Below are positions 9,785 to 35,716 of a DNA stretch of 64,000 nt, piece by piece. The position numbers and the translations under genes were made by a program. Under the pieces are notes generated by a model, which ran no database searches, had not been told where the DNA came from, and was given only the letters and a program-made list of their open reading frames with translations. The DNA comes from Deltaproteobacteria bacterium. Its GTDB lineage: Bacteria > Myxococcota_A > Polyangia > Polyangiales > Polyangiaceae. The DNA lies in contig QJWJ01000353.1 in NCBI GenBank assembly GCA_003235365.1, positions 1-64,000 of the forward strand, in the 5' to 3' direction. Each line of letters opens with the position of its first letter. The stretch's first letter is position 1.

Positions 9785-9966
9785 TGAGTTGGGGGATTCC
9801 GGCCACGGGCGCGTTCGGCGCACGTGTGGTCGCTTCCACCACATACGCACACGCGATACCGAGCCCACGGTGAGCTGACAGACAAAATGCACTGCCGGAG
9901 CGTATGGATTTGGGTCCGTGCTGGCACAGACACCCTAGGCCGCAACTTCAGCGGCCAAGGTGATTC

Positions 9967-15129: not shown

Positions 15130-15402
15130 CGAGGGTCAGTCGAACGACGCCGCCACCGCGCCGCGTCACTCCCAAGAAGACCCGCGAGCGGACCAATCTG
15201 ACTGCGAAGCGTCGACTTCACCCTTTCAGTCACTGCCTGCGATCGGCACGCACGCGCCTTCCCGAGCCAAGGTAACTCTACGCTGAGACCGGCGCTGAGA
15301 CCGCTCCCATGCCGAGACCGTGACGATCACGGCGCACGATCGTTGGACGGGCCACCTGTAGATGACTTGAGCGCACGAGAGCCTGGTGGTAGCGAATCGT
15401 CC

Positions 15403-17551: not shown

Positions 17552-18901
17552 TCATCGGCCGAGGAATTCGAGGAGCCAAGTCATGGCAGGACGCTGCACC
17601 CCGTCACTGCTCATCAACCCGCTGTTGGTGACCCAGGTCGCGCCTTCGATGTATCCCCACAGCGTGATCCCAGGCACGTTGGGGTTGTCCCAGAACATCG
17701 TGAACATCGCTTCCATCACGTCGCGCTGCCGGCCATCGTCGGCGATGTTCAAATCGAACTCGGTAATGTAAACGGGCAACCCGGTCTGCGATGCAATCGC
17801 GTCGATGTAGCCCTGCACCGTGCTGGCCGAGAGGTTCGCTGCCGCATGGGTTTGCGCACCGACTGCGTCAATCGGCGCGCCAGCTGCCTTGATACGATTG
17901 ACGATGTCGATCGTGTGGTTGTTGTCGTTGGGGTTCTCGACGTTGTTGTAGTCGTTGAGGATCAGGATCGCATCGGGACAGTATTGGTCCGCCCACTTGA
18001 AGGCTTGCACGATCCAGTCGTAGCCGCTCTCGCCGTCGCCCCCCAACGCGGCGATGTACACGGGCGAAGTGTGCGGTGGCGGCTCGTTGACCACGTCGAT
18101 GATCGGCGTGTCAGGATAGCGCTCGCAGAACAGACGAATCCACTCCTCGACTTCCTCCCGCTGTTCCGTTGCTGAAAGGCCATCGAGCCAGCTCGGCTGC
18201 TGCCGACCCCAGATGAAGTTGTGGTGTTTGAAGATGATGCCGTGGGTCTGGGCGTACTCGTACATGGCATCGACGCTCGACCAATTCATCTGGTCGCGCG
18301 TGCGTTCGATGGAACCCCACTTGCCCGCGTTCTCCGCGGTGAACTGATCCCAATACAGACTGAAGTCGTCGCGAACCTCGCCGCGCGTGTCGATGTTGCC
18401 GACGAACTTGGTCCGGGGCGTGGGCCCGATCGTCCCACCGTCTTCGGCGCTCGAGACTGATGTGCCACCTGCGCCCCCTAGTCCGACGCCGAGCCCCGCG
18501 TCGGCGCCCGGGTTTGCGCCGCCGCCGGCGTCTTCTCCAACAGAATCACGTCCACCCGCGCCTGTGCCAGGCCCGTCGGGGCGAGCACCACCTACACCGG
18601 AAGAACTGGTCATGTCCCGCGTGGGCTCCGATGCCAACGGCCGAGCGCTGGTCGTGCCGATCGTGCTCGCCGCAACCGGAACGCCGCTGGGCACGCCAGC
18701 CGTGGGTTGATCCGTCGCTCGATTGGCGGTTGCGGACGCGCTCCCTGGTGTATCCGCAGCAGACGTAGTCCCGCTGATAGCTCCCGTTCCTTCGCCCGAC
18801 TGGGCCGGTGGTCCATCGCATCCGTGCGCGATGGCAGCGAGCACCAGCGGCAAGGCCAGCCTCACAGCTGCAGAGAAGCGATGATCGAGTCGGAAGGTCA
18901 C
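17552..18901 (-). CDS. GH10 endo-1,4-beta-xylanase, lipoprotein
   Basis: A 449-residue protein with signal LPLVLAAIAHGC (lipobox AHGC) and a Gly/Ser/Thr-rich linker to about residue 135. The rest is a glycoside hydrolase family 10 TIM barrel: WDQFTAENAGKWG, FIWGRQQPSW, the acid/base Glu in DVVNEP and the nucleophile Glu in VYITEFDLN, plus GITLWGYIEGATW near the end. GH10 enzymes cleave xylan internally with retention of configuration. Lipid anchoring suggests display on the cell surface. Both catalytic Glu are present, so it should be active. The catalytic domain is about 310 residues, normal for the family. Confidence 0.95.
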   Translation of the reverse strand: MTFRLDHRFSAAVRLALPLVLAAIAHGCDGPPAQSGEGTGAISGTTSAADTPGSASATANRATDQPTAGVPSGVPVAASTIGTTSARPLASEPTRDMTSSSGVGGARPDGPGTGAGGRDSVGEDAGGGANPGADAGLGVGLGGAGGTSVSSAEDGGTIGPTPRTKFVGNIDTRGEVRDDFSLYWDQFTAENAGKWGSIERTRDQMNWSSVDAMYEYAQTHGIIFKHHNFIWGRQQPSWLDGLSATEQREEVEEWIRLFCERYPDTPIIDVVNEPPPHTSPVYIAALGGDGESGYDWIVQAFKWADQYCPDAILILNDYNNVENPNDNNHTIDIVNRIKAAGAPIDAVGAQTHAAANLSASTVQGYIDAIASQTGLPVYITEFDLNIADDGRQRDVMEAMFTMFWDNPNVPGITLWGYIEGATWVTNSGLMSSDGVQRPAMTWLLEFLGR

Positions 18902-19282: not shown

Positions 19283-20917
19283 GTGACACCCCGTGTGAAC
19301 CGTAGGCTCTTTCTGCGCGGCTTGGGTGGAGCGTGCGTCGCAGCCCCATTCCTCAGCTCACTCGTCGAACGTGGAGTCCTAGCAGGGTCGGCAGCCCTCC
19401 CCAGGCAGCTGATCGCAATGTTCACTCATTACGGCTGCATCACTACTCGGTTCTTTCCAGCCAAGTCACACGGAGCGCTGAGCGCGGCCGATCTCGAGTC
19501 GACGACGCTGAAGCACTTGGCTCCTCACGTCGACAAGATGCTCATGCCACGCGGCATCCGTGCCATGAACGAGTGGACGACATCGCTCGCGCGAGGGCAG
19601 GGAAACGACACCTACTTGCAGGTCGTCGGTTCGTACCTCACTTGCCAACCGGTAACGCCAAATTCCGACGACCCGTTCTCCTTCCAACAGGCCACGAAGT
19701 TCAACGCCAAACCCGTCGGTCCGTCACTGGACCATGTTATCGCCGCGCAGGTCAGTCCCGATGGACTGCCGCTGTTGCTGAACGTAGGCGGGACCCGTGA
19801 CAACGCGCAAAGCGCCATCTCGTACTCCGCGGCGGAAACGCCGTTTGCGGGGATCAGCGCCCCGCTTCAGGCGTTCCAAAACCTGACGGGGTTGTCCATG
19901 AACGGTAACGCCATGTCTCCCGACAGCTTCTTGGTAGCGCGGGGCAAGAGCGTACTCGACGTGGTGCACGACGACTTGGAGACGCTCGAGCGTTTCGACA
20001 TGAGCCGCTCAGACAGAGACAAACTCGAAGCGTGGAAGGCCCTCCTGCACGAGACGACACCCGCCCTCATCCCCCAGGGCTGCGACGGCCAGGTTGCTGG
20101 TTCTCTGATGTTGACGCAAACCACCTTCGACGCGATCGCGAGCCCGCTGGGCTCAGACGTTCTGACATCGAAAGTGACCGACAGTTTGGACGGTGCAGAC
20201 GTCTACTCGAACCTCGCGGTGCTCGCGGCGGTCTGCGGTGCCAATCCGATCATCTTACTGAAGTACCCCTCGACCTACGTGTTCAACGGCCTCGACATCA
20301 CCATCGAAAGTGCCAGCTTATCCCACCGGGGGGACAATGCCGGAATGCAGGGCGACTGCTACCCTGATGCAATTGACCACATCCTGAAGATCGACGACTT
20401 CTACACGAGAAAGTACGCTCACCTGGTGTCGCTCTTGGACAGCTTCTCGGAGGGCGACGGAACCGTGCTCGACAACACAGCCGCAGTCTGGTTTCAAGAG
20501 GTGTCGGATGGTTGTGCGCGCAATCTGAACAACCTGCCAATCGTGCAGATGGGCGGCATGGGGGGCTACTTCAAGACGGGTTGGGCGGTAAACGTCGAAG
20601 ACGGCTCGGCTGACCTGACACAGGGCAACAGCGAAGCGCAGTGCACGCCCGAAACCACGACCGAATACGACGCGCTCACCCAGGAAACCGGCACCGACCC
20701 GAGCGTCGCCAACGCACCGATCAACAAGTACTACTGCAACCTGATGAATGCGCTGGGCGTACGGGCCGGATCAGATGGCTTTCCCACACGCGGAGGGCTC
20801 GCCGAGGTCACCAAGTTCGGGATGTACGACAAGACCGAAGACTTCATCGGGGGAGGCACCAACCCGCCCATGATCCACGACCCAGGCGAGTTCAGTGCGC
20901 TGAAGGCGAACACCTGA
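19283..20917 (+). CDS. DUF1552 protein, Tat-exported
   Basis: GTG start with AGGGGG five nt upstream. The N-terminus VNRRLFLRGLGGACVAAPFL is a twin-arginine signal (RRLFLRG). The 544-residue protein matches the DUF1552 family seen in planctomycetes and myxobacteria: FTHYGCITTRFFP near the start, LDHVIAAQVSPDG, and a C-terminal NKYYCNLMNALGVRAG segment. Tat export implies folding in the cytoplasm, possibly with a cofactor. DUF1552 genes are normally next to a DUF1592-type cytochrome protein; here no such partner is adjacent. It shares its family with the proteins at 34259 and 41130. The function is unknown. Confidence 0.85.
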   Translation: MTPRVNRRLFLRGLGGACVAAPFLSSLVERGVLAGSAALPRQLIAMFTHYGCITTRFFPAKSHGALSAADLESTTLKHLAPHVDKMLMPRGIRAMNEWTTSLARGQGNDTYLQVVGSYLTCQPVTPNSDDPFSFQQATKFNAKPVGPSLDHVIAAQVSPDGLPLLLNVGGTRDNAQSAISYSAAETPFAGISAPLQAFQNLTGLSMNGNAMSPDSFLVARGKSVLDVVHDDLETLERFDMSRSDRDKLEAWKALLHETTPALIPQGCDGQVAGSLMLTQTTFDAIASPLGSDVLTSKVTDSLDGADVYSNLAVLAAVCGANPIILLKYPSTYVFNGLDITIESASLSHRGDNAGMQGDCYPDAIDHILKIDDFYTRKYAHLVSLLDSFSEGDGTVLDNTAAVWFQEVSDGCARNLNNLPIVQMGGMGGYFKTGWAVNVEDGSADLTQGNSEAQCTPETTTEYDALTQETGTDPSVANAPINKYYCNLMNALGVRAGSDGFPTRGGLAEVTKFGMYDKTEDFIGGGTNPPMIHDPGEFSALKANT

Positions 20918-21090: not shown

Positions 21091-21104
21091 TTTGCAGCTG
21101 CAAA
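21091..21104. promoter_or_regulatory. 14-bp perfect palindrome upstream of Cys-rich repeat lipoprotein
   Basis: TTTGCAGCTGCAAA is a perfect palindrome 38 nt before the chosen ATG of the Cys-rich repeat lipoprotein. Its position suits an operator for a dimeric regulator. No regulator gene is adjacent. Confidence 0.4.
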
Positions 21105-21142
21105 GTGTACAAAGTTGGGACAGAGTTGGAACGTCGTCGCTC

Positions 21143-23269
21143 ATGCGCCATCTTACTTCCTACTTCTTGCTTCCAATTGCCGCGCTGGCCCTGCCGGCAC
21201 CGACGCTGCTGTCTTGTGAAAGCGGGCTGCCAGACGACTGGGGCGTGCGCCGAGACTCCGGACTGGAAGGCGAGTCCGACGAGAGTACTTCGTCGGATGA
21301 TGCGCCCACAACCTTCGTCGACGGGGGTCCACAACCCAACGGGACAGCGATGGACTCGGGCGAAGGGGGCTCGGTCTGTGGCAAGGGCACGTTCCTCCGC
21401 AACAACCGGTGCGTCGCTTGGAGGAATTGTGATCCAGGCAGCTATGTCGTCGAGGCAGGCTCCACCGAAGCCGATCGACGCTGCGCCGATTGTCCCACGG
21501 GGACGTTTACGGCCACCAGCAACGAAGCGGAATGCCAGCCTTGGTCGATCTGCCAACCCGGGCAGTACGTCAGTCAAGCGGGCACGGACGCGCGGAATCG
21601 TGCCTGCGAAAAGTGCCGCACCGGAACCTCGACAACGACCGCGAACGCAAAAGAATGTGTGGTGTTCGCGGAGTGTCCACCTGGAACGCTCGAACTCAGG
21701 AACGACGACGAAGTGGCGGTCGGATGCGAGACCTGCGAAACCGGAACGTACTGCGCGGGAGGTGACGCCGACATCGTGCCGTGCGAGGCCGGCGAATGGG
21801 ACGATGACGGCGACTCGTCGACGCCTTGTGTCGCACACACGGCATGCGAGCCAGGTACCTACCTGAAACAAAGCGGAGATCGGTTGCGCGACCAGCAATG
21901 TGCCGCTTGCACCGATGGCTACTTCAGCCAAGACGTCGACGCATCTGCTTGCCAGCAGTGGCAAGACTGCGCGGCGGGGACTTACATCGAGCTGGGGGGA
22001 ACGGCGAGCAACGACGTGGAATGCGCCGGCTGTGAATCAGGCTCGTACAGTACGAACACGAACGCCGATTCATGCACATCCGCGACGGACTGTCAGCCGG
22101 GTGAGTTCGTCAGCGACCCCGGAAATGCCACGACGGACCGCACTTGCAGTCCGTGTCCCGATGGGCAGTACAGCGCGACGGTCAACGCGGGATCGTGTTC
22201 GGATCCCGACGCTTGCCCAGCGGGCACCGTGGAAACCGCGCCCGCGACGGGCATGTCGGCGGCGGAGTGCGCCCCCTGTTCATCCGGAAGCTACTGCGCC
22301 GGTGGAACCTCAGCCGAAGCAGCATGCGCCGCCGGCACTTGGGATGACGACGGCGACCCCGCAACGCCCTGCGCGACGAAGACCGATTGCGTACCGGGTC
22401 AACGCATCGCATCCGAAGGAGATACGACGACCAACCGCAGCTGTTCGAATTGTGATTCGGACAACTACAGTACCAGCATCAACGCGCTCAGCTGTGATGA
22501 CTGGACCAACTGCAGCCCCGGTACCTATGCCTCCGTGGCAGGTTCGAGCACGAGCAACCGCGAGTGCAGCCCGTGCCCGAGCGGCCGTTACTCCAGCGGC
22601 AGCAACGCTGCCAGTTGCTCACCCTGGACGACGTGCTCAGCGCCGACGTTCTACCAGTCGACGGCGCCAAGCTCGACCAAGAACCGGGTTTGCACCGCGT
22701 GCCCGTCTGGCCAAATTTCCACCAGCGACAACGCCACCAGCTGCATCGTGCCAGTGTATCAGATGAGTGGCGGGCAAGTCGTCATGGAAGCTGAACACTT
22801 CCATGCGAAGACCGATGTTGCGACGGACTCCTGGGCGGTCGAGGATATCTCTGCAGCGTCAGGCGGCCAGGTGATGACGGTGGGTCCCGATGCGGCATCG
22901 GGCGGACAAGACTGGATCGACTACATGACGGTGGACACCTCACCGCATTTCGACTTCAACGTGAACTTCGATCGGACCGGCCAGTTCTGGGTTTTCGTCC
23001 GCGGCGATGCCGCCCCCGCAAGCCCGAGCAACGGCAACTCGTGCTGGAACTTCCTGGACAACGAGGTCTTCGGTATCCCCCACGAATTCCCCTCGACGAC
23101 GGGAACGTGGAGTTGGGTGAGCAGCGGTCCGCTCAACATCAACTCGACGGGACTGCACAAGGTGGGAATCTACGCGCGAGAAGATGGGTTTCGTGTGGAC
23201 AAGATCGTGATCAAGAACTCGCAGACCGCAATCAGCGGGGCTGGACCCGCCGAGAGCCCGCAACAGTAG
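21143..23269 (+). CDS. Cys-rich (ephrin-receptor/GCC2-GCC3-like) repeat lipoprotein with C-terminal carbohydrate-binding-like domain
   Basis: I start it at MRHLTSYFLLPIAALALPAPTLLSC (lipobox LLSC); the track version adds 17 residues. After a Ser/Asp-rich linker come about ten tandem repeats of ~45 residues with the pattern CxPGxYxxxxGxxxxxRxCxxCPxGxY, resembling the GCC2/GCC3 or ephrin-receptor-like Cys-rich motif (e.g. CPSGRYSSGSNAASC). The last ~160 residues, starting YQMSGGQVVMEAEHFHAK, look like a CBM6/35- or GH115-C-terminal-type carbohydrate-binding beta-sandwich. This suggests a disulfide-stiffened stalk presenting a sugar-binding tip on the surface. There is no catalytic domain. It fits the nearby secreted glycan-active genes. 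Confidence 0.83.
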   Translation: MRHLTSYFLLPIAALALPAPTLLSCESGLPDDWGVRRDSGLEGESDESTSSDDAPTTFVDGGPQPNGTAMDSGEGGSVCGKGTFLRNNRCVAWRNCDPGSYVVEAGSTEADRRCADCPTGTFTATSNEAECQPWSICQPGQYVSQAGTDARNRACEKCRTGTSTTTANAKECVVFAECPPGTLELRNDDEVAVGCETCETGTYCAGGDADIVPCEAGEWDDDGDSSTPCVAHTACEPGTYLKQSGDRLRDQQCAACTDGYFSQDVDASACQQWQDCAAGTYIELGGTASNDVECAGCESGSYSTNTNADSCTSATDCQPGEFVSDPGNATTDRTCSPCPDGQYSATVNAGSCSDPDACPAGTVETAPATGMSAAECAPCSSGSYCAGGTSAEAACAAGTWDDDGDPATPCATKTDCVPGQRIASEGDTTTNRSCSNCDSDNYSTSINALSCDDWTNCSPGTYASVAGSSTSNRECSPCPSGRYSSGSNAASCSPWTTCSAPTFYQSTAPSSTKNRVCTACPSGQISTSDNATSCIVPVYQMSGGQVVMEAEHFHAKTDVATDSWAVEDISAASGGQVMTVGPDAASGGQDWIDYMTVDTSPHFDFNVNFDRTGQFWVFVRGDAAPASPSNGNSCWNFLDNEVFGIPHEFPSTTGTWSWVSSGPLNINSTGLHKVGIYAREDGFRVDKIVIKNSQTAISGAGPAESPQQ

Positions 23270-23782: not shown

Positions 23783-25489
23783 ATGAAAGCCCGCAATCTT
23801 GGAATCGGGGTTGTATGCCGAACAGTGACGTCAGTTCGTCGCAGCACTGTGCTGCAGCTGGCCTTCGTGTTGCTGTGTTGTGCCTGTCGAAGTGAGAGTC
23901 TCAGCATTGGGTCCAATCCATCGCGCGAGGAGGCACCAGCGATGGGGGACAGCCCAGCGAGCACCAAACCCGTTGGGCAAGGAACTGAGCCAACGGCACC
24001 CAAGCGTCGGCTTGGCCACTTACCGCCACCATACCCGCCAGGCCGCTGGCGACTCGCGTCCAGCGACGAGCTGGAGCTCACGACGGTTTGGGCTTCCCAC
24101 ATTCTGATACGCCACACCGACGCCGAATCCAAACAAGCGCCGCTCACCCTCATGGAGTGGAGCCTCCACCGGCAGCCATCAAAGCGACCGTGGCAGCAAG
24201 CGCTCACCCTGGCCCAAGATCTGGAGCGGCGCCTGCGAGAGAAGCCAGGCGACTTCAACGAAATCGCGACCCATCACTCCGAGGATCCCGCAACGCGCGC
24301 CAACGGCGGACAGTTGGGAGCCATGTCCGCCGTCGACTTGTCGGTCTGGCCCGAAGTGCTCGACGCGTTGGCCGCCATTGAGCCTGGTGAGATCTCGAAG
24401 GTCGTCGAAACCGAGTCTGGATTCCACATCTTCCGGCGCGATCCGCCTCCGGAGTCGGAAAGTCTCGCCGGACGCCACATCGTGCTCGGACATGACGACG
24501 TACCCGGACTGCGGCTCACACATCGCACGGACCGCGCTCCTGTCGCGAGGAGCCACGATGAAGCCGCGACCTTGGCTCTCGAGCTCGTTCAACAGCTGAA
24601 CGAGGACCCGGCAAGGTTTGCTCAACTCGTCGAGGCCTATTCCGACTCGGAAGACTCCCTACGCGGGGGTGATCTCGGTGTGTGGTCCAATCAAGAACGA
24701 ACGAACTTCCGCCTCGAGCTTCTGGCCATGGCGAAATTGGACATAGCGCAGGTCTCCTCTCCCATCGAAACGCAGCTGGGTATTCAGATCCTGGTGAGGG
24801 ACCCCGCGAGTGAACGCACGGAGCTGGGGGCATCGGTTTTGAGTTTGCCCTACGCCGCGAGCGCAGCAGCTAGCGACTCACCCCTACCCAGCCTGGAGCA
24901 AGCCCAGAAGAAAGCTGAAGAGGTTCGCTCGATCTTGCTGCGAGATCCCTCACAGCTGTCAGCATTTCAACAGGCCTATTGCTGTCTGGAGGCGCAACGC
25001 TGGGCGCCGGGTCGTGCACCACCTGGCGCCCTTCCCGCTCTACAAAAGGTGGCGGTCGGACAGTTCACGCCCGTGGTCAGGACGGCATCGGCGCTGATCA
25101 TCGCGCGTCGTCTCGACTTGGCAGACGTCCCTCCGCGCCAACCAACTAGATTGACCATTCCGACTCCGCTGGGACCTCAACTCGGGCGCCTCGTGCGAAG
25201 TACACAGCCTGCGGCCCTCGCTCGATTCTGCCGAGAGTTCGCCCCTGCTGCCCAGGCTCGACTGGACCTGGGCAGTCAACTCGCCGAACCATTCGCCGAA
25301 GTGCACGCTCGGCTGGCTACCGCTTTCGAGGGGGTGCACGAACCGAGTGCCAACGAGGTGTTGATGAACGAAGCTTTCGAGCGGCTGCGCGAGCTGCTCG
25401 GCGAAGCGAGATACGCTCAGTATCGCCGCTTGTTGGACGACCGCATCGAAGCGAAAGTGTTCGGCTTGACCGCAGGAGCCATCAGGTGA
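23783..25489 (+). CDS. Parvulin-type (PpiC/SurA-like) peptidyl-prolyl isomerase lipoprotein
   Basis: Start at ATG 23783 behind GGAGG; the track start is nine codons further up. The signal ends LLCCAC (lipobox), giving a 568-residue lipoprotein. Two rotamase domains are visible. The first starts ASHILIRHTD and ends GGQLGAMSAVDL...SGFHIFRRD. The second starts GRHIVLGHDD with the GGDLGVWS and LGIQILVRD segments. The ~250-residue C-terminal part is less clear. Parvulins isomerise X-Pro bonds and chaperone exported proteins, here at a membrane. It is the first gene of a four-gene operon whose members overlap or abut, suggesting that it folds or delivers a substrate of the downstream membrane enzymes. 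Confidence 0.88.
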   Translation: MKARNLGIGVVCRTVTSVRRSTVLQLAFVLLCCACRSESLSIGSNPSREEAPAMGDSPASTKPVGQGTEPTAPKRRLGHLPPPYPPGRWRLASSDELELTTVWASHILIRHTDAESKQAPLTLMEWSLHRQPSKRPWQQALTLAQDLERRLREKPGDFNEIATHHSEDPATRANGGQLGAMSAVDLSVWPEVLDALAAIEPGEISKVVETESGFHIFRRDPPPESESLAGRHIVLGHDDVPGLRLTHRTDRAPVARSHDEAATLALELVQQLNEDPARFAQLVEAYSDSEDSLRGGDLGVWSNQERTNFRLELLAMAKLDIAQVSSPIETQLGIQILVRDPASERTELGASVLSLPYAASAAASDSPLPSLEQAQKKAEEVRSILLRDPSQLSAFQQAYCCLEAQRWAPGRAPPGALPALQKVAVGQFTPVVRTASALIIARRLDLADVPPRQPTRLTIPTPLGPQLGRLVRSTQPAALARFCREFAPAAQARLDLGSQLAEPFAEVHARLATAFEGVHEPSANEVLMNEAFERLRELLGEARYAQYRRLLDDRIEAKVFGLTAGAIR

Positions 25490-27723
25490 ACGGGCGAACG
25501 CTCATTGGGGCAATACTCGCGCTGATTGCCGTGGGCATCGTCTACTGGGCGTGGCCTGAAGACGACGCCGTTCACCCGCACACGTCCGAGCTCTCCGTCG
25601 ATCCACGACCCGACGAACGGGAGCAACGCGTTCCCACCATTCAACGCTGGGAACGTTCGTCAACGGAGACCCACGACGGCTTCTCCGGTCGCATAACGGC
25701 GACGAACGGCAGGGCACTCACTGCGAGTGTTTGTGTGACGTCCGAACCGACGCGTGGAGACGATGTACCGTGTGTGAACACCAATGCAGCTGGCGAGTAC
25801 GAACTGCACCTCACATCCGGTTTTGTCTACACCGTCTCGGCATCCGCACCAGGCCACATCGCTTCCTCCCGCCGAGTCGTCGCGTCCGCTCCGGCCCTCG
25901 ACTTCGTGCTCGAGGCGGGCGGTAATCTCATACGCGGAATCGTGCTCGACGCGACCGGCGGAACCATCGCAGGTGCGCTCGTCTCCGCCGCGGCTGGAGG
26001 AATGAGCCCCCTGGGGCGCACGCTCTCCGACACCGAAGGACGGTTCGAGCTACGTGCCGCAGCAGCCATGGTCGATCTGACCGCGACAGCGCCGGGCTAC
26101 GCCTTGGCCCAACTCGAGCTGGTTTCACCAGCGGACGACGTCCACCTGGTCATGGCCCCAGGCGCCGTCTTGACAGGAAGGGTCCTTCACGCCGACACGA
26201 AACACGGTGTGGCTGGCGCCAGCGTGACGATTCGAGCGCGCGACGGTGTCTTGGCGAGGATCCCCCCAGCCGCAACGGGCGATGACGGACGATTCCGAGT
26301 CACTGGCGTCCCCGCTGGCGCGTACGAACTCACTGCAACGGCGGATCAGCTCATCAGCCAGCCTCAATTCGCACGAGTAGCTGTCGCGAGTGAATCCCCA
26401 GCGATCGTCCTCGAGCTGGCACCCGCGGCGCGGGTCGAGGCCAACCTGATGGTAGGCGATGAGCCCTGCCAACACGGCACTGTGAATCTCGTGGGAGCCG
26501 CGTCCGTCGCTGCCGACGTCGAGGAAGGGACTGCAGTGCTCCCCGCCGTCCGGGGGGGGCGGTACAACGTGCAAGCATACTGTGAACGGGGTGGCTTCGC
26601 GCGATACGAACTCGACGTACCCCAACGTGGCCTGGTGCATCCAGTCTGGCGAATGGATCCTAGCTTCGAACTGAAGGGTCGCGTCGCCACGACGTCCGGT
26701 ACTGGCGTCGCTGGCGTTTCCGTCCAGTGCATGCCCACGGGCTCCGCCGCTGCAACGCCGCCCCCCGTGCCTCCCTGCACCACGGGCGCCGATGGCGACT
26801 TCGCCTGCCACGGCTTCCACGCAGGGCGCTATCGGTGCGCCGCTGAGCTCACGAAGCCCGAATCCGCGATTGACGTCGAGCTACCCACCGATGATGTCGT
26901 CACACTGGTGCTCGAACCCCGCGCGACCATACGCGTAGACCTCGGCGCTGCGGTGGCGGGGGCCACAATCGTCGCAACCGATGAAGCGGGGATACGCCGC
27001 TACGCACGCAGCGCCGGGGGCGCCTGGTTCGCTTTCCACAACCTACCCCTCGGCGTCTACGAGGTCGGCACGGGCCAGACACCGAACCAGGCCAGCGTAA
27101 ACCTGACGACGGCTGGCCAAGTCGCAGAAGTCGCGCTTCGACCGGAGCTCGGCCTGCTTTCGGGGCAGGTACTCGACGCAGCGGGGATGCCAGTCGTCGA
27201 AGCCTGGGTGCAAGTCCAACCACAAAGTGACGGAGCAGCGGCGGTTCCACCAGCGCTCACCGACGACGATGGTCAGTTCGAATTTCGTTCCATCGCCGTT
27301 GGGATCTACTCGGCAATGGTAACGAGTCCACTGGGCGAAGCGTCGCTTACGGACTTTGAAACCGGCACGCCCAGAGTACTGACTCTCCGGGGATATGGCT
27401 CCGTCGGTGGAAGCGTGGTCGACACCGACGGCAATCCGGTCTCGGAGTTCGTCGTCTCGTACGCAGACCAGGAGAAGATGGAGGTCCAGAGGGTATCCGA
27501 CGCCCAAGGACGGTGGTCCCTACCCTGGCTGAAGGCGGGAAACTGGAAAATCAGCGTTCGCGGAGACGCCGGCAGTGCTGAACAGTCAGTGAAGATCCAA
27601 CCGGCGACGCGAGCGGAATTGCACTTCACGCTGAGTTCATTGGGTGGGACCCAGAACGATCAAGAGCCCACCGTAGACTCTGACACGACGTCAGGCGAAG
27701 AAGCGGAGGCGCGCGGTGGCTGA
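25486..27723 (+). CDS. Membrane-anchored protein with tandem carboxypeptidase-regulatory-like domains
   Basis: GTG start overlapping the PpiC stop by 4 nt (GTGA). It has an uncleaved N-terminal anchor (LIGAILALIAVGIVYWAW) followed by about seven Ig-like beta-sandwich repeats of the CarboxypepD_reg/Cna-B type, each with a G-x-V-x-D-x-x-G-x-P/I-x-G-A pattern (e.g. GIVLDATGGTIAGALVSA, GQVLDAAGMPVVEAWVQV) and a FxxxGxPxGxY end. Length 745 residues. Such domains are structural and non-catalytic and often mediate protein or glycan contacts. Its place between a foldase and two multispanning enzymes suggests a periplasmic scaffold. Its stop codon lies inside the start of the MBOAT gene (8-nt overlap). 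Confidence 0.85.
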   Translation: MNGRTLIGAILALIAVGIVYWAWPEDDAVHPHTSELSVDPRPDEREQRVPTIQRWERSSTETHDGFSGRITATNGRALTASVCVTSEPTRGDDVPCVNTNAAGEYELHLTSGFVYTVSASAPGHIASSRRVVASAPALDFVLEAGGNLIRGIVLDATGGTIAGALVSAAAGGMSPLGRTLSDTEGRFELRAAAAMVDLTATAPGYALAQLELVSPADDVHLVMAPGAVLTGRVLHADTKHGVAGASVTIRARDGVLARIPPAATGDDGRFRVTGVPAGAYELTATADQLISQPQFARVAVASESPAIVLELAPAARVEANLMVGDEPCQHGTVNLVGAASVAADVEEGTAVLPAVRGGRYNVQAYCERGGFARYELDVPQRGLVHPVWRMDPSFELKGRVATTSGTGVAGVSVQCMPTGSAAATPPPVPPCTTGADGDFACHGFHAGRYRCAAELTKPESAIDVELPTDDVVTLVLEPRATIRVDLGAAVAGATIVATDEAGIRRYARSAGGAWFAFHNLPLGVYEVGTGQTPNQASVNLTTAGQVAEVALRPELGLLSGQVLDAAGMPVVEAWVQVQPQSDGAAAVPPALTDDDGQFEFRSIAVGIYSAMVTSPLGEASLTDFETGTPRVLTLRGYGSVGGSVVDTDGNPVSEFVVSYADQEKMEVQRVSDAQGRWSLPWLKAGNWKISVRGDAGSAEQSVKIQPATRAELHFTLSSLGGTQNDQEPTVDSDTTSGEEAEARGG

Positions 27724-28903
27724 GCTCTTACTCGAACTGATGAACGAACGAGCGTTGCGTATTGGGCTTCTCGGCTTGTTCATGCGCAGCCTGCCCTTCG
27801 CCGTATACGTTTGCCAGTCCACCACGCGCCATTGGTTGGTCAAGGTCGGGGCGGTGCTGACCTGTACCTTGCTCGCGTTCGTCAGCGAGTGGAGCGCTGC
27901 TCACCTGTGGGTGATGGGCACCCTGCTCTACTTCGCCGTGGCCAGTGCAGGAACGTGGTGGCTAGAAGCCAAGTATCGCGAAGGAAACATCACCGGGGGC
28001 GCCCTCTTCGTGATCTGCGCCGCTGCTTTCCTCCTCGTTCCTTCATTGTGGCTGGCGGGGGCAGCCGAGCTCATGGTCCTCAGCGTCGGTTGGGAACTGT
28101 GCTTCGCCAGCTACAGCTACTGCCGGGATGCCAACGCCCGGGGCACTGGCAAGCTCGCGAGTCTGAAGGACTGCCTGTTCTTCATGATGGTCAATCCGGT
28201 GCTAGTGTACCCGGAGCGTTGCGCCTCAGGAGGGGATGCAACTCGGCTTCAGGGGTTGGTCCTGGCCGCCGTCGGCGCTGCCGGCTTCCTGATGGGCACC
28301 ACGCTATTAGTACCGCTCCTCGGCGCGGTAACCCCACTCACTGAGCAACTTGGTGGGCTGCGTCACCTTCTCTACTCCGTGCTCGGACTCGGGATCATGC
28401 GATTCGTCTGTGCCTATTTCGTCCAGGCGGGAGGTGTCAACTACCGCATCGGGATCATGCGAAGTCTGGGTTACGCCGTCCCCGACTCGTTCAACTACCC
28501 GTTCTTGTCTACGAGTCCAACCGACTTTTGGCGTCGGTGGAACGCCTACGTTCTGAACTGGCTCAAGCGCTACGTTTACCGTCCACTGACTCGGGCCAGC
28601 GCGTTCCGCAGACTGGGCGCTTTGAGCCTGGCTGCGGCAGTGCTCGTCACGTTCGTTGCCAGTGGCTTCCTGCACGAACTGCCCGCCTATGCTCGGCACG
28701 CGCGGTGGGTAGGGCACTTCGCTGCCCAGTTCACACTGGTAGCCGTCGGAACCGTACTTTGGCTGGGCGTCGACCGCTGGTTGAAGAGCCAGGGTCGACG
28801 CGCAAAGGGCGTGCGGCAAGCGCACGTTCGAACCGTTCGCGATTGGTTCGCCAGGGCGGTCATCGTCGGCGGCATGCTCACAATGCCATTGGTATGGGGG
28901 TGA
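27716..28903 (+). CDS. MBOAT-family membrane-bound O-acyltransferase
   Basis: GTG start overlapping the preceding gene by 8 nt. The 395-residue protein has about ten membrane segments. The MBOAT signature is NYPFLSTSPTDFWRRWNAYVLNWLKRYVYRPL-like (DFWRRW followed by YVYRPL) with the conserved catalytic His in ASGFLHEL. MBOAT enzymes move acyl groups from thioesters across or within the membrane onto polysaccharides (as AlgI and DltB do), lipids or proteins. The usual bacterial partner (an SGNH/AlgX- or DltD-like protein) is absent; instead an HTTM protein follows. The acceptor is unknown; candidates are an envelope glycan or a protein delivered by the operon's PpiC protein. Confidence 0.88.
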   Translation: MAELLLELMNERALRIGLLGLFMRSLPFAVYVCQSTTRHWLVKVGAVLTCTLLAFVSEWSAAHLWVMGTLLYFAVASAGTWWLEAKYREGNITGGALFVICAAAFLLVPSLWLAGAAELMVLSVGWELCFASYSYCRDANARGTGKLASLKDCLFFMMVNPVLVYPERCASGGDATRLQGLVLAAVGAAGFLMGTTLLVPLLGAVTPLTEQLGGLRHLLYSVLGLGIMRFVCAYFVQAGGVNYRIGIMRSLGYAVPDSFNYPFLSTSPTDFWRRWNAYVLNWLKRYVYRPLTRASAFRRLGALSLAAAVLVTFVASGFLHELPAYARHARWVGHFAAQFTLVAVGTVLWLGVDRWLKSQGRRAKGVRQAHVRTVRDWFARAVIVGGMLTMPLVWG

Positions 28904-28908
28904 GAGCA

Positions 28909-30255
28909 ATGCAAGCCGCAACACAACCGCCTCTCGTCGGCCCCACGTCCCCACAGGAATGCACACCATATCCACACGCCACAAAGCTGAGAGCGGAACG
29001 TCGCAGGATCGAAACACCATCGATCGAGAAGAGTTCTGCCCTTCGCTTCGACGCACTGCGAATAGCGCTCGGCCTGGCATTGGTCGTTCACTTTGTTAAA
29101 CAACTCCCACACACTCCAGCTCTCGTCGCACAAGGCGGGCTCTTCGCGCCCGAGCTGAGCACCTACCTCACCGGCCCCGGGCTGGCCTGGGGCGTATCGT
29201 TCTCAGAGTTGACACCAACCCACGTCCGGATCTGGTTTGGCGTCGCGCTGGCGCTCTGTTGTGCAATCGCGTTGGGGTGGAGGACGCGACTGTGTGCGGC
29301 TGCCTTGCTGGCGATGTGCACCGAAACTTACTGGGGTATCTACCCGGCCACGCTTCGAGACGACCAAATTGCCTGTGTCACCGCTGCGTGGTTGATGCTG
29401 TTCCCCTTTGGACGGACTCTCCAGCTGTGGCGCCTATCCAATCGGGAGTCATGGCGCCAACACTGGGCCGAGTCCTCCCGGCTGTCGATACCCCGCGGCA
29501 CACGGCTCGTATTCGCGGTCCAGTTGCTACTCGTGGAGTTCCAAGTCCTGGTGCTTCCAACCGTCCGCGATGGGACGTGGTTACCGCTGTTCGGGTGGGT
29601 GATGCTGATCGCCGCGGCGCGACTGAGTTCGCACCGCTTCTCGATCTCCCTTGCGCTGGCGCTCACACTTGCCCTGCACGTCGGGTTCTACATTGAGACC
29701 GAAATGCTTCTGGCGAGCGTCGCGCTGTTTTGTGCATTTGCGTTCGTGTTGACCGTCAACGGCTCAATCGCGATTAGCCCCACCCCCAAAGTCGGCGCCG
29801 GAATCGCTCTGGCGGGGGTGCTCAGCTTGGTGCAAACGCTGTGCGCGACGTCCTCGGCATTCCACTGGCAGCGTCCGTTCTTCGTCACTTCCCGGATACT
29901 CGCAGACTTGGGCATGGCGCCTCCCGCCTCCGTGCTTCTCGGGACTCGAGGCGCGACTGCACAGATTCATAGACTCTCACCCGAAAGCACCATTCCGGAA
30001 ACTCCCCCCGACACTCTTCGTGACCGTGCGGTGTTGGCAGTCGCATCTGCGCCGGAAAGCGAACGAATGACGCGCCTGCGATCGACTGTCGCGGGACGGT
30101 ACGCCAATGCGTATTGCTCACGCCACCCGCACTTCGACGGTTCGGCTCAATTGGTAGCCCTCGATCGCCAGCGGGAGCTGCCACTGGCGTGGTTCGCCTG
30201 TTTGCGGTCACGCCCCTCCGACGTGGTCTTGCTACGTCCCAACGGCGCGAACTGA
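28909..30255 (+). CDS. HTTM-domain (vitamin K-dependent gamma-carboxylase-like) membrane protein
   Basis: The track ORF starts inside the MBOAT gene; the real start is ATG 28909 (preceded by GGGGGTGAG) or the GTG at 28900 overlapping the MBOAT stop. The ~448-residue protein has a cytoplasmic N-terminus, then ALRFDALRIALGLALVVHFV and WGIYPATLRDDQIACV..LMLFPFGRTLQL, the arrangement of HTTM domains, with about eight membrane helices. The last ~130 residues are soluble. HTTM proteins are distant relatives of gamma-glutamyl carboxylase; most bacterial ones have no known reaction. Carboxylase activity should not be assumed. It ends the PpiC-CarboxypepD_reg-MBOAT-HTTM operon. Confidence 0.82.
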   Translation: MQAATQPPLVGPTSPQECTPYPHATKLRAERRRIETPSIEKSSALRFDALRIALGLALVVHFVKQLPHTPALVAQGGLFAPELSTYLTGPGLAWGVSFSELTPTHVRIWFGVALALCCAIALGWRTRLCAAALLAMCTETYWGIYPATLRDDQIACVTAAWLMLFPFGRTLQLWRLSNRESWRQHWAESSRLSIPRGTRLVFAVQLLLVEFQVLVLPTVRDGTWLPLFGWVMLIAAARLSSHRFSISLALALTLALHVGFYIETEMLLASVALFCAFAFVLTVNGSIAISPTPKVGAGIALAGVLSLVQTLCATSSAFHWQRPFFVTSRILADLGMAPPASVLLGTRGATAQIHRLSPESTIPETPPDTLRDRAVLAVASAPESERMTRLRSTVAGRYANAYCSRHPHFDGSAQLVALDRQRELPLAWFACLRSRPSDVVLLRPNGAN

Positions 30256-30374
30256 ATCCCTACGGCAACAGCTCGCGCGAATGACCTGCACCGCGGAGAC
30301 CGACTCGACATCCGCCTCAGATTTCGTGGGCAACGCCCACGGGAGACACATCGAAAACATCAAGGAGAATCAAG

Positions 30375-30758
30375 ATGACAAGCAAAACGATGAAATCGCT
30401 GGGTGCTGCAATCTGTGCGGCTGCCGGCTTGGCAGCGATTGGTTTCACCGTCACCCCGGCAGACGCAGCTTCCAAGCTGTGTTCAGCGGTCAGCTGGGGC
30501 ACAGGGAGCCAGTGCATTGGCGGCTCGGGCAGCCTGTGGGTGTTCAGCTCGGGCAAGGGTGACGGTAGCGGCACGTCCGCCAAGTTGGGCGTGAGTATCG
30601 ACCAGGGTGGGTACAAGGCCACGGCATACGCGTACGACGTGTACGGAAACTACCAGTCTTCATGCACGGTCACCGATACGACGCTCAACGGCGACTCGAG
30701 CTACGACATCACTGGTTGCGGCAACGCGGCAACTTACAAGATCCGCGTCTACTGGTGA
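30375..30758 (+). CDS. Small secreted four-Cys protein
   Basis: A 127-residue protein with a good RBS (AAGGAG, then ATCAAG, then ATG). A standard signal peptide ends TVTPADA-A, leaving about 95 mature residues. The mature chain has four Cys (KLCSAV, SQCIGG, SSCTVT, TGCGNA), enough for two disulfides, and an alternating pattern suggesting a small beta-sandwich (KATAYAYDVYGNYQSS; YKIRVYW end). I do not recognise a family. It lies 119 nt after the HTTM gene, followed by a GC-rich hairpin, and could be a secreted effector or a substrate of the upstream envelope modification genes. Confidence 0.8.
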   Translation: MTSKTMKSLGAAICAAAGLAAIGFTVTPADAASKLCSAVSWGTGSQCIGGSGSLWVFSSGKGDGSGTSAKLGVSIDQGGYKATAYAYDVYGNYQSSCTVTDTTLNGDSSYDITGCGNAATYKIRVYW

Positions 30759-30763
30759 TGAGT

Positions 30764-30780
30764 CGGGGCCGCTCGGCCCC
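30764..30780 (+). terminator. Hairpin downstream of the small secreted protein gene
   Basis: CGGGGCC-GCTC-GGCCCCG forms a tight 7-bp GC stem starting 5 nt after the stop codon. No long T run follows. It is the likely 3' boundary of the small-protein transcript. Confidence 0.55.
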
Positions 30781-31204: not shown

Positions 31205-34102
31205 GTGGTGGGACAATTCACGAACAACGTCGCGGCGGAGATTCAGCTACCCGGATGCCGCCTCGACCTGGGGCGGGGAACGCTCGTCCGACGGGGAACG
31301 ACGCTCACCTCGAGACGTCAAGTCGTGCGCCTGCTTGCCTACCTTTGCACCCGACGCAACACGATGGTTTCGAGAGAAGAACTCGCGCGGGCCCTGTGGG
31401 CGGATGGCGGGGGCTCGGATGGCGCGCTCAACTTCTGCGTGGCAAGAGCTCGCGAAGTGCTTCAGCACGTTTCCGGTGCGCGTTTGGTGACGATTCGTGG
31501 TCGGGGATACCGCCTCGAGCTGGAGCCCGAGAGTCGCGGTGTGGGCCCAGGAACACTGTTGGCCTGCTCTCGCCACACACCACCGGCGGGTCGCGTAAAC
31601 TCGGGACTACTGGAACGCTCCAAAGAGATCGCGGTGGTCACGTCTCAACTGGAGGATGCCGCAACCTGGCGTCAACCGCGCATAACCCTGGTGAGCTCTG
31701 ACGTAGGTTTCGGCAAGACTGCATTGGGTGGAGCTATCGAAGTTCATGCCGCGAGTCGAGGATTTGGCCACATCTGGAGTGGCTGCATCGAGGGGGAGAC
31801 CGAGCCACCTGGGTGGCCCTGGCCAGACGTCCTCGAACGACTCCGCGGCGAAGATCGCCCAGGCGCTCCCGACAGTGACCAGCTGCCGGCGCCGATTGAC
31901 ACGCAACGGCACCGATTCTGTGGTCGAGTACTCCAAGCCCTGTCCGACTACCGGGGGGGCGTGCCGCTCCTCGTCGTGTTGGACAACATGCACCTCGCTG
32001 ACGAGCTGGCATTGTCCGTTTGCCACCACCTGCTGGCCCGAGGCCGTTCGCTGCCGGTTCATGTCGTCCTACTGGTTCGCACCCAGATCGGAGCCAGGGA
32101 GAGCGAAGGGCTCTCCATGCTGAGAACCCAAGCAGTAGAGATAAGTCTCCCACCCCTCTCTCGAGAAGCGAGTCGGTGTCTGATCCGACGATGCCATCCT
32201 GGAATGAACGCAGAACTGGAGCAAGCTGTTCTCGAAACCGGGCGGGGCAATCCATTGTTTTTGGTCAAAGCCTGCGCCCGCGCGAGCACCAACCCCTCCC
32301 TCGATTCGGCTGCGGTAATCCGACACGGTCTCGCGCATGTGCTGCCGGTCCAACTCAAGAGCCTGCCCGCCCGCGCAACGCAGTTGTTGCACGTCGCAGC
32401 GGTTCTTGGGATGCGATTCCAACTTCCGGTCGTCGCGTCCGCGCTGGAGTGGTCCATCGCCGAGGCTCAGCAGTACCTGCAGCCCGCACTGAGCGCACGA
32501 ATGGTGCTCGTGGCGTCAACCCTCGAGTATCGATTCGACTCCGAATCGACGCGACAGTTCCTGGTCGATGAAATCGGCTCAATTGAAAAAGCCGTACTGC
32601 ACTGGCGTATCGGTTTGGCACTGAGGCTCTCGGCAGACAACTGCACCGGGCGCGATCACGCCGCCGCCTATCATCTCACTCAAGGCGCATCCGACCAGAC
32701 ACAAGCAGCCCTGGCTTTCGACGCTTGCGAAGAATCGGGAACGCGAGCGTTGCGAGACTGTTCGTTCGAAGCCGCGGCGAGTCGCTTCAGCGACGCACTG
32801 GCGATGAGCGAGCTGGCTCGGCCCGAACCGCAACGCCTGATCGGGGTGCTATGCCATTCTGCCTTTGCGCACCGACATGCGGGTCGCCTCGGCCAAGCAA
32901 GAGAGTGTGCGTGGCGCGCCTTGCGTTTGGCCGATCAGAACGCGAATGGTGAGTACTTTGCGGAAGCGGCACTGCGCATCGCCGAGCTATCGCTCAATCG
33001 CGCGAGTGGCAACCAGCACGTCCTGGAAGCACTATTGCGAGCTGCGCTGCGGATCAAGCGCGGTACGGAAAGGCATTGCCACCTGCTCCTTTGCACCGCC
33101 GAACTCATGTTCGCCTCCGAGTCTGCAGATATCTCCTCCCTGGCGCGTGAAGCGAGGCAAGTGTATTCCGACGCCCAGACTGCGCGGGCAAAGGGACTAC
33201 TCGACTGTTGTGAGGTGTTGGCGTTGTGGAACTGTCCCGACGAGTCTGAGCGACTTCTCGAGCTGCTCGAACGGGCCAGTACGACGTCGGATGAAGCAGA
33301 AGACCGCGAACGAGTCGCGAAGTTGGACTTGCTGTATGCCGGCATCAACCTACGCCTGTGTCGAATGAGCGAATACCGGCACGGCATTCGCCAAGCCGCC
33401 CAAGTTGCCGAGCAGATGCCTTTTTCCGCTCCGGCACTCCTGGTCTCCATCGCTCGCGCCGCGCTCGCGGCGTTCCGAGGTCAGCTGCAATCTACCGACC
33501 TGATTGCTCACGCCTACCAACAGAGCGAGCAGGTCACGCCGGAAAGGGTTCTTCAGGCCGCAACGATGCAACGGCTGCTCTACGCGGTCGAAAACCCTTC
33601 ATCAACTCAGCTCTCCGAGCTCATCAGCCAGGTCCCGGTGCCACACTGGAGCACGAGGTCTGGGCAGGTGCACCGCGCCTTCTTTCAGGCAATGCTGGGG
33701 GATGACGCCGGCTCGTTCGCAACGTTCGAGCACCAAGCATCGGACGGTCTGTACGACGCAAACGCGAATGACTCGTTGGGTGTCGTGGCGCTGCGCTGTG
33801 AATTGGCAGCCCACCATGGCGACAGGCGGTACGCTCGCCAAACACTGGACGCGCTATCTCCTTTTGCCTCCCAGCTTGCCACCATAGGCTGTGTGGACGC
33901 GATTGTGGCACCGTTGGGGTTCAGTCTGGGTGCCTTGGCCACATTGGTCGGCGACCTCGAACTTGCACACCAACTGTACAGTCGAGGTGCGGCGGCGTCG
34001 CAACTCGTCGGCGCCTTCAACTGGGTGAGACGCTGCCAACTCGCACGAGAACGACTCCGTGACATGGAGCTGCCCACCCCGTTGCGAATCCGTCGCGACT
34101 GA
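31205..34102 (+). CDS. Winged-helix DNA-binding / AAA-type ATPase / TPR transcriptional regulator
   Basis: A 965-residue protein with GTG start. Residues ~5-100 are an OmpR/SARP-type winged helix (VRLLAYLCTRRNTMVSREELARALW; RLVTIRGRGYRLE). From ~150 is an AAA_16-type ATPase: Walker A VSSDVGFGKTAL (first Gly replaced by Ser), the family hallmark PPGWPWPDVLERL, and Walker B LLVVLDNMHLAD. From ~500 the protein is an alpha-helical TPR-like solenoid with Leu/Ala-rich repeats. This is the architecture of large signal-integrating activators (STAND class), which bind an inducer through the repeats and use nucleotide state to control DNA binding. The target is unknown; the operon upstream (same strand) and the DUF1552-DUF1592 pair downstream are candidates. 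Confidence 0.88.
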   Translation: MVGQFTNNVAAEIQLPGCRLDLGRGTLVRRGTTLTSRRQVVRLLAYLCTRRNTMVSREELARALWADGGGSDGALNFCVARAREVLQHVSGARLVTIRGRGYRLELEPESRGVGPGTLLACSRHTPPAGRVNSGLLERSKEIAVVTSQLEDAATWRQPRITLVSSDVGFGKTALGGAIEVHAASRGFGHIWSGCIEGETEPPGWPWPDVLERLRGEDRPGAPDSDQLPAPIDTQRHRFCGRVLQALSDYRGGVPLLVVLDNMHLADELALSVCHHLLARGRSLPVHVVLLVRTQIGARESEGLSMLRTQAVEISLPPLSREASRCLIRRCHPGMNAELEQAVLETGRGNPLFLVKACARASTNPSLDSAAVIRHGLAHVLPVQLKSLPARATQLLHVAAVLGMRFQLPVVASALEWSIAEAQQYLQPALSARMVLVASTLEYRFDSESTRQFLVDEIGSIEKAVLHWRIGLALRLSADNCTGRDHAAAYHLTQGASDQTQAALAFDACEESGTRALRDCSFEAAASRFSDALAMSELARPEPQRLIGVLCHSAFAHRHAGRLGQARECAWRALRLADQNANGEYFAEAALRIAELSLNRASGNQHVLEALLRAALRIKRGTERHCHLLLCTAELMFASESADISSLAREARQVYSDAQTARAKGLLDCCEVLALWNCPDESERLLELLERASTTSDEAEDRERVAKLDLLYAGINLRLCRMSEYRHGIRQAAQVAEQMPFSAPALLVSIARAALAAFRGQLQSTDLIAHAYQQSEQVTPERVLQAATMQRLLYAVENPSSTQLSELISQVPVPHWSTRSGQVHRAFFQAMLGDDAGSFATFEHQASDGLYDANANDSLGVVALRCELAAHHGDRRYARQTLDALSPFASQLATIGCVDAIVAPLGFSLGALATLVGDLELAHQLYSRGAAASQLVGAFNWVRRCQLARERLRDMELPTPLRIRRD

Positions 34103-34258
34103 CGCGAATGGTCCGATGGAGGTCGCGCAACCCAGCTCATCCCTCGAACAACCGATCAGTACAGGTGAAACGTTACCGTACGGGCAACATTCACTCGACC
34201 GTCCCGTGGCGTCGCGCTCCTCGCTAGCGATCGCTGCGTGCGTTACGCTTCGTGTCTC

Positions 34259-35716
34259 ATGTCGACGCTTGCGCAAAGTCGGCGCGCATTCCTCCGCGCT
34301 TTGGGCGCTGGTGCGACCGCATTGCCGTTCTTTCGTCTGTTGGAGAACAGCGCGGTGCATGCACAAGCGGCGTCGACGCCGATGCGCTACGTCAGCGTTC
34401 TGCACCTCCACTCCGCGGCGTCACCCCTCTACGTCCGACAAGCCGGCGAAACGGAGACGGACTTCGACATCGCCTACGAGGGGTGTGTGCTGAAGTGCTT
34501 CGACGACCCCGACACGTACGGGGTCAGCTTCAAGGACAAGCTGATTGCGATCGACGGGATGGACCTCGCAGTGGCACTGGCAACAGGAGACGGCGGCCAC
34601 TCCGCTGGACCTGGCGTGTTCACCGGGGCGACACCCACGTCACCGGAAAACTCGAGCATCGATCAGTTTTTGGCTGTGGAGCACGGATTGGGGGCGGATA
34701 CGCGAGTATCGAGCATTGCGCTCGGCATGGGCCTCGACACACCCGATTGGGGTATCGTTTTCGGAGCCGGCGGCGTGCTTCTGCAGAAGATCATCGATCC
34801 GACTGAGACGTACAACACGCTATTTGCGGGCATCGTGGTTGGGGACGATCCCGTAGCCTTGGCCGAAGCAGAGCGCAAACGACACTTGGGCGGTAGCCTG
34901 CTGGACTACCTGCGCAGCGACATTGGTCGGACCTACGAGCGTCTGGGAGGGGAAGAGCGAGAGAAGCTAGATCTCCACTTGACGACACTGCGGGAACTGG
35001 AAAAGCGCCTGGGTGATTTGGAGTTTCATTGCGCATCCCTGCCGGACCCTCCCCCGACTTTCGAACACCTCACGACTTTGGCCGGCGCCGGGCCGGACCT
35101 GCACGAGATCACGCAGCTGCAGATGGGTTTCCTCGCGCAAGCCATGGCCTGCGACCTGACGCGCTTCGGGTCGGTCGAACTGCATGACTTGAGCGGCGGC
35201 GCGGCTGTGGGTGCTGGCATCGTCGACATGCCAAATGACAACCACGCGGAGCTCGCTCACAAGTACTTCCCACCGATCTACGACGGCGAGGAGCTGGTGG
35301 ACCCAGGTGACCCTGAGAGCTGGGAACGACTCGCTGTCGTGCACCGCTACAATTACGGCACCGTCGCGGCGTTCATGAAAGACCTGCACGCGGCTGGAGT
35401 CCTAGATGACACACTGATCTACGTGTCCGGGGAAATGGGCGAGCCGAATCTCCACAGCTCCGAGGACACCCCGATGCTTTTGCTGGGCGGCGCGGGAGGC
35501 AAGTTCCAGATGGGGCGTCGCCTCAAGGTCAAAGACAACTGCGCCGGGAACGCGCGCAACTGCGCAGGACGAGAGCAACTCACTTCGCACAATCAAGTGC
35601 TCGTTTCCATCGCCAATGCGTTCGGCGTGGAGATCGACACTTACGGCACAGCTCTGGACACGGAGCTAACCCAAGGCGCGCTCGCCGCGTTGACGGAGTT
35701 GGGAGTGAGCTTGTGA
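34259..35716 (+). CDS. DUF1552 protein, Tat-exported, coupled to DUF1592-type cytochrome
   Basis: Start chosen at MSTLAQSRRAFLRALGAGATALPFF, a twin-arginine signal (SRRAFLRAL); the track adds seven residues. The 485-residue protein belongs to DUF1552: SVLHLHSAASPLY, SSIDQFLAVEHGLGADTRVSS, LDYLRSDIGRTYERL and the C-terminal NQVLVSIANAFGVEIDTYG. Its stop overlaps the start of the DUF1592-type gene by 4 nt (GTGA), so the two are cotranslated and probably interact outside the cytoplasm. In most genomes the cytochrome gene comes first; here the order is reversed. The reaction is unknown. Confidence 0.87.
   Translation: MSTLAQSRRAFLRALGAGATALPFFRLLENSAVHAQAASTPMRYVSVLHLHSAASPLYVRQAGETETDFDIAYEGCVLKCFDDPDTYGVSFKDKLIAIDGMDLAVALATGDGGHSAGPGVFTGATPTSPENSSIDQFLAVEHGLGADTRVSSIALGMGLDTPDWGIVFGAGGVLLQKIIDPTETYNTLFAGIVVGDDPVALAEAERKRHLGGSLLDYLRSDIGRTYERLGGEEREKLDLHLTTLRELEKRLGDLEFHCASLPDPPPTFEHLTTLAGAGPDLHEITQLQMGFLAQAMACDLTRFGSVELHDLSGGAAVGAGIVDMPNDNHAELAHKYFPPIYDGEELVDPGDPESWERLAVVHRYNYGTVAAFMKDLHAAGVLDDTLIYVSGEMGEPNLHSSEDTPMLLLGGAGGKFQMGRRLKVKDNCAGNARNCAGREQLTSHNQVLVSIANAFGVEIDTYGTALDTELTQGALAALTELGVSL

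Follow-up and report, generated by a model that had tools for sequence, protein, structure and literature searches.

A modular cassette of a parvulin, a small secreted Cys protein, and alternating MBOAT or repeat-protein partners

What would bring a parvulin-type peptidyl-prolyl isomerase, a protein of CarboxypepD_reg repeats, an MBOAT acyltransferase, and a further multi-pass membrane protein together in front of a gene for a small secreted Cys protein? These five genes lie on the + strand between positions 23783 and 30758 of the 64,000-nucleotide (nt) stretch of DNA analyzed here, which we call the window and which comes from a relative of predatory soil bacteria. To judge from a comparison with 184 genomes of the order to which Sorangium belongs, the parvulin and the small secreted Cys protein are the constant core of a modular cassette. 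We read this as a dedicated foldase-client maturation cassette in which the MBOAT may acylate the small secreted protein as its likeliest acceptor, and we place the probability of this reading at about 0.45. No description of such a cassette was found in the open-access papers searched.

A recurring pair with changing partners

The survey ran from an MBOAT search of the 184 genomes, in which neighborhoods were read and most were seen to hold a parvulin, to a parvulin search in which each locus was read. Genes in the relatives were called by the length of open reading frames (ORFs) and by third-position GC, and signal peptides were judged by eye; most of the relatives are draft genomes, and some contigs end close to the locus. 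The parvulin family comprises 15 loci in 11 of the 184 genomes, with the parvulin of G169, which is split across two contigs, joined and with L112, L113, and L114 excluded. These three were considered as family members and rejected as lower-scoring parvulin matches with partial similarity and no small gene seen. The cassette has so far been found mainly in this order; genomes outside it were sampled thinly, and a phylum-level MBOAT profile search, which scored four candidates per genome, is uninformative on absence.

A gene for a small secreted multi-Cys protein is present at all 15 parvulin loci, on the opposite strand in L033 and as two genes in tandem in L105 and L109. The partners vary. 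An MBOAT accompanies the parvulin at eight loci, namely the window, L014 (G125), L033, L034, and L038 (all G009), L036 (G124), L037 (G178, Sorangium cellulosum So ceGT47, NZ_CP012670.1), and L110/L115 (G179), where the MBOAT gene is split across two contigs. The repeat protein does so at seven: the window, L103 (G175), L105 (G170), L106 (G150), L107 (G114), L109 (G169), and L111, a further locus of the genome that holds the window. Both are found together in the window only and neither at L104 (G175), so that the two modules are nearly mutually exclusive (14 of the 15 loci have at most one of them). L038 with its MBOAT and L111 with its repeat protein are fully supported sisters on the parvulin tree, which forces at least two swaps of partner module.

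The original prediction for this locus was a dedicated envelope system made of the first four genes, to be checked by their co-occurrence. When that check was run, the four genes stood together in the window alone, and the identical order was not found in other genomes, but the sub-modules did co-occur. Because the partner modules alternate, we reject a fixed four-gene operon. What survives is the dedicated system around a small Cys protein, one of which is held by every parvulin locus and whose four-Cys family, described below, is found at those loci and at one further place adjacent to a repeat protein; the fixed set of four genes and a chemistry of the gamma-carboxylase type do not.

The parvulin gene (23783-25489, 568 amino acids [aa]) encodes an N-terminal hydrophobic, lipobox-like segment, and a lipobox is seen at most loci. 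Pfam finds two Rotamase stretches (E 1e-30), and the protein can be divided into one complete rotamase domain, one degenerate rotamase domain, and a third region with conserved Cys. H106, S166, D168, and H215 are invariant in the family alignment, and the conserved His pair of rotamases is present. The cassette parvulin is like PrsA and SurA in being exported and in combining a complete rotamase domain with further degenerate ones, but unlike them it adjoins a small secreted gene in every locus and does not reach the NCBIfam equivalog cut-offs. This constant adjacency suggests a dedicated rather than a general foldase. The gene association itself is observed, and comparison lends good support to a foldase-client link, in which the parvulin would probably fold the small protein. 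In L033 (G009), an in-frame TAG interrupts the parvulin reading frame at an early point, at about 3303-3308, which could mark a pseudogene or stem from a sequencing error.

Its probable client or substrate, the small protein (30375-30758, 127 aa), has a signal peptide followed by about 96 aa and contains five Cys residues, four of them in the mature part (C36, C47, C97, and C115). It has no Pfam match; searching PDB sequences with the profile of the small proteins gave no match, and Foldseek with its structure model gave none that was significant. At the 15 loci the small proteins begin with a signal-peptide-like start, and their mature parts mostly have 4, 6, or 8 Cys. Seven of them form a clear four-Cys family, and the remainder are too diverged for confident alignment. 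A profile built from the small proteins of MBOAT-free loci placed the window protein at the top of 969 window frames (E 3e-5, the next at 0.8), and the reverse direction succeeded for the small proteins of L105 and L109. Because the MBOAT-free profile ranks the window protein first, we take the small proteins of both partner configurations to be homologous. By profile, a single copy of the four-Cys family was found in the window's own genome, and the converse search of the 184 genomes found the family only at the known loci and at one extra place in G115 (L136). There, a repeat-protein gene precedes the small gene, and upstream, at the position that the parvulin occupies in L106 and L107, lies an IS3-like transposase pair (9742-10982).

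The small proteins also differ in a way that relates to the parvulin. A C-terminal C-x5-C is found in those of L037, L110, L038, and L111 (L110 being assigned through its 82 % identity to L037) and is absent at the other 11 loci. These four loci form a starred parvulin clade, although L111 has a repeat protein and the others an MBOAT. The exact probability of this agreement is 0.003 (3 of 3 versus 0 of 11, with L037 and L110 counted once), for a grouping that was noticed post hoc. The pattern is suggestive of a small-protein type that tracks the parvulin clade and not the partner module, and it would fit, again suggestively, a foldase and client that have co-evolved as partner modules came and went.

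The repeat protein (25486-27723, 745 aa) consists of one N-terminal transmembrane segment and seven CarboxypepD_reg, transthyretin-like repeats (Pfam, E 2e-56). Its homologues stand next to the parvulin in L103, L105, L106, L107, L109, and L111; Pfam confirms the repeat domains in L103, L105, L106, and L111. As an alternative partner module, it probably serves as a periplasmic scaffold or anchor.

In the window, all five ORFs were confirmed in the order, and with the overlaps and gaps, of the original prediction. The parvulin and repeat-protein genes overlap by 4 nt and the repeat-protein and MBOAT genes by 8 nt; a gap of 5 nt precedes the fourth gene and one of 119 nt the small-protein gene. 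GGAGG stands in front of the parvulin ATG and AAGGAG in front of that of the small protein. GC and third-position GC of the operon genes resemble those of neighboring genes, and scans for promoters, terminators, and Rfam families gave nothing beyond chance level.

The MBOAT clade and the fourth gene

The MBOAT (27716-28903, 395 aa) scores 39.7 bits against a Pfam cut-off of 27 (E 5e-10) and has the domain and invariant His of the superfamily; this residue, H320, is found in all nine complete members of its clade. With the family profile, matches to DltB (E 4e-8) and to DGAT1 (E 1e-5) were obtained. By its fold, its invariant His, and the DltB match, the cassette MBOAT is like the MBOATs of PatA/PatB, AlgI/AlgJ-X, and DltB/DltX/DltD. 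The nine complete clade members share the motif [DEA]FW.R[WY]N, whereas the other MBOATs of the order have RWH (20 of 20), and a C-terminal FxYxxF occurs in none of the nine versus 16 of those 20. In a tree, the nine separate from 15 of the other MBOATs with support of 100/100.

In known bacterial systems, the tyrosine of FxYxxF serves as carrier of the acyl group on its way to an SGNH enzyme (PMC12148441). No SGNH domain was found in the window operon or in the scanned neighbors of its relatives, a scan that a distant, unlinked partner would escape, and the window operon has no gap to hold a gene for a shuttle microprotein of the DltX type. The small protein was itself tried as a DltX-like shuttle and rejected, as it has no FxYxxF; its C terminus reads VYW in the window and VFW in L014 and is variable at other loci. 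Unlike MBOAT-SGNH systems (PMC12148441), the cassette MBOAT has Asn for the first His, no FxYxxF, and no SGNH partner seen, and it stands beside a parvulin and a small secreted protein instead. These features argue against membership in those systems.

The pair formed by N276 and H320 fits the pattern of an Asn or Asp and a His about 40 residues apart, which is unspecific, as DGAT1 has the same pair. GOAT depends on an Asn and a His at this spacing, and the pair is also conserved in DGAT1 and SOAT1 (PMC8316800). Like GOAT (PMC8316800), the cassette MBOAT has the Asn-His pair, no shuttle partner, and a small secreted protein as likely acceptor, but it shows no closer sequence kinship to the GOAT group than to DltB or DGAT1, and its substrate is a predicted one. 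Its key residues look more like those of animal enzymes than like their counterparts in ordinary bacterial MBOATs. Porcupine and HHAT are further protein-modifying eukaryotic MBOATs; the features of the clade would be compatible with protein and lipid acceptors alike.

Eight of the ten clade MBOATs adjoin the cassette parvulin. In L034 and L038, a PP-binding carrier protein is encoded directly after the MBOAT, an arrangement like that of Dlt with its DltC. A thiolase gene (9900-11261) lies two genes past the carrier protein in L034, and a link to the acyl donor is possible.

The fourth gene (28909-30255, 448 aa) has no Pfam or NCBIfam match, and it does not reach the curated cut-off of PF05090; across the whole genome, the Pfam HTTM model recovered six other HTTM genes above cut-off and missed this one. 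In hhalign, its profile matched five HTTM proteins of the same genome with 97.5 % probability (E 9e-12, 266 columns), against 0.1 % for an MBOAT control. In Foldseek, the leading hits of its structure model were GGCX structures (E 0.15 and above), a weak result that agrees with hhalign. Backing for the HTTM identity given in the original prediction comes only from profile-profile comparison, with none from the Pfam model. K191 of L116, which we take to be the equivalent of GGCX K218, is invariant in the five own-genome HTTM proteins and has no Lys counterpart in the window protein or in its relatives of L014, L015, and L016. Because this Lys is absent, no carboxylase chemistry is predicted, and we reject gamma-carboxylation by this protein. 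The protein is thus like HTTM and GGCX in profile-profile similarity and top Foldseek hits and unlike them in its missing Lys, its lack of a Pfam match, and its different C-terminal part, and we regard it as a putative distant relative. It has a counterpart beside the MBOAT in L014 and L015 only.

Proposed acylation of the small protein and competing explanations

As we picture the cassette, the lipoprotein parvulin would sit on the membrane as the dedicated foldase of a cognate small, disulfide-stabilized, beta-rich secreted protein. Interchangeable modules would be added to this pair: the membrane-anchored transthyretin-like repeat protein as scaffold or anchor, the MBOAT, or both, as in the window, together with the HTTM-like protein that also accompanies the MBOAT at two other loci. 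The MBOAT would draw on a cytoplasmic thioester, namely acyl carrier protein (ACP) charged with an acyl group in relatives with the carrier gene and otherwise coenzyme A or a general ACP, and would pass the acyl group through its own channel straight to an acceptor on the outer face, with neither an acyl-tyrosine shuttle nor an SGNH transferase. The likeliest acceptor would be the small protein held by the parvulin, although we propose it only tentatively as the acyl acceptor. With slightly more reserve, we suggest that the parvulin presents the disulfide-bonded small protein to the Asn-His MBOAT for direct acylation, which would make the cassette a bacterial counterpart of ghrelin and Wnt acylation that works without the shuttle.

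Several observations weigh against this proposal. The MBOAT is absent at seven of the 15 parvulin loci, so acylation would not be generally needed by the small protein, and no residues specific to MBOAT loci were found among the small proteins. Conversely, the clade MBOATs of L015 and L035 have no parvulin nearby. The carrier protein is found at only two of the ten MBOAT loci and is missing from the window operon, and the Asn-His pair also serves lipid acceptors, as in DGAT1. The structure models are of low confidence, both for the small protein (AlphaFold, all-beta, pLDDT 56) and for the fourth gene (pLDDT 50).

Some of these points would be expected if the foldase-client pair were real but the MBOAT, with the HTTM-like or carrier protein, acylated a membrane lipid, glycolipid, or polysaccharide, and the genes shared an operon only because their products all serve the same envelope state or the same stage of development. 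In favor of this, DGAT1, the best of the eukaryotic profile matches, is a lipid acyltransferase with the Asn-His pair, two MBOATs stand without a parvulin, and the partner modules swap on the parvulin tree. Association of eight of the ten MBOATs with one parvulin family argues in the other direction, as does the lack of any recurrent glycosyltransferase, SGNH, or lipid gene in the cassettes, and we consider a lipid or glycan acceptor unlikely. The near exclusion of repeat protein and MBOAT is also what alternative anchors would produce, and the small protein could be a subunit of an extracellular fiber or coat, with the repeat protein as its anchor and the MBOAT giving it an alternative lipid anchor. 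Its all-beta model, low in confidence, and the single transmembrane segment of the transthyretin-like repeat protein would suit such a role; but the window holds both modules, the fold matches are not significant, and genes of the pilin, usher, or sortase-like kinds were not seen, which makes a fiber distinctly unlikely.

In a predatory group, small, fast-evolving, disulfide-rich secreted proteins with tandem paralogues (L105 and L109), a patchy distribution, and mobile elements near L014 and L136 also bring to mind antibacterial or prey-directed effectors, for which the repeat protein, MBOAT, and HTTM-like protein would serve to shield the producer's envelope or as an anchor for the effector. 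The small protein matched no toxin family or fold, however, and immunity genes should vary with their effector, yet the same parvulin and Cys types pair with different modules; we find this very unlikely. That the genes are chance neighbors with no common function would agree with a four-gene order found in the window only, but it is contradicted by the parvulin, MBOAT, and small-protein families that recur together at other loci, by the small Cys protein at every parvulin locus and the parvulin beside most clade MBOATs, and by the overlapping reading frames, and is hardly credible.

Surroundings of the operon and wider bearing

Downstream of the operon lies a gene for a Trans_reg_C and AAA_16 regulator (31205-34102, + strand, Pfam), a possible candidate regulator of the cassette; Trans_reg_C regulators adjoin L034 and L111 as well (Pfam). 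Just upstream, a 725-aa ORF (21092-23269) combines eight TNFR/NGFR Cys-rich repeats with a GH115 C-terminal-like domain. On either side of the operon lie genes for DUF1552 (HXXSHH) proteins and a PSD/PSCyt multi-domain protein (19283-20917, 34238-35716, and 35713-37455, the downstream pair overlapping by 4 nt), and farther upstream, genes for plant-polymer degradation, GH12 (15343-16617) and GH10 (17552-18901), lie close together on opposite strands. Near three MBOAT cassettes, proteins of no Pfam family have a VDCR-x3-C motif in common (L014 8159-8884, L034 8265-8909, and L033 1416-2309).

In the bacterial MBOAT pathways that PMC12148441 describes, an acyl-tyrosine motif passes the acyl group on to an SGNH enzyme. 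An MBOAT clade that has neither the motif nor an SGNH partner and is tied to a foldase and a small client points to a different route of acyl transfer. Should the MBOAT indeed acylate the small protein, the modification would be of a kind new among bacterial proteins, with a bearing on the origin of protein-acylating MBOATs, and the question can be tested in a cultured Sorangium strain.

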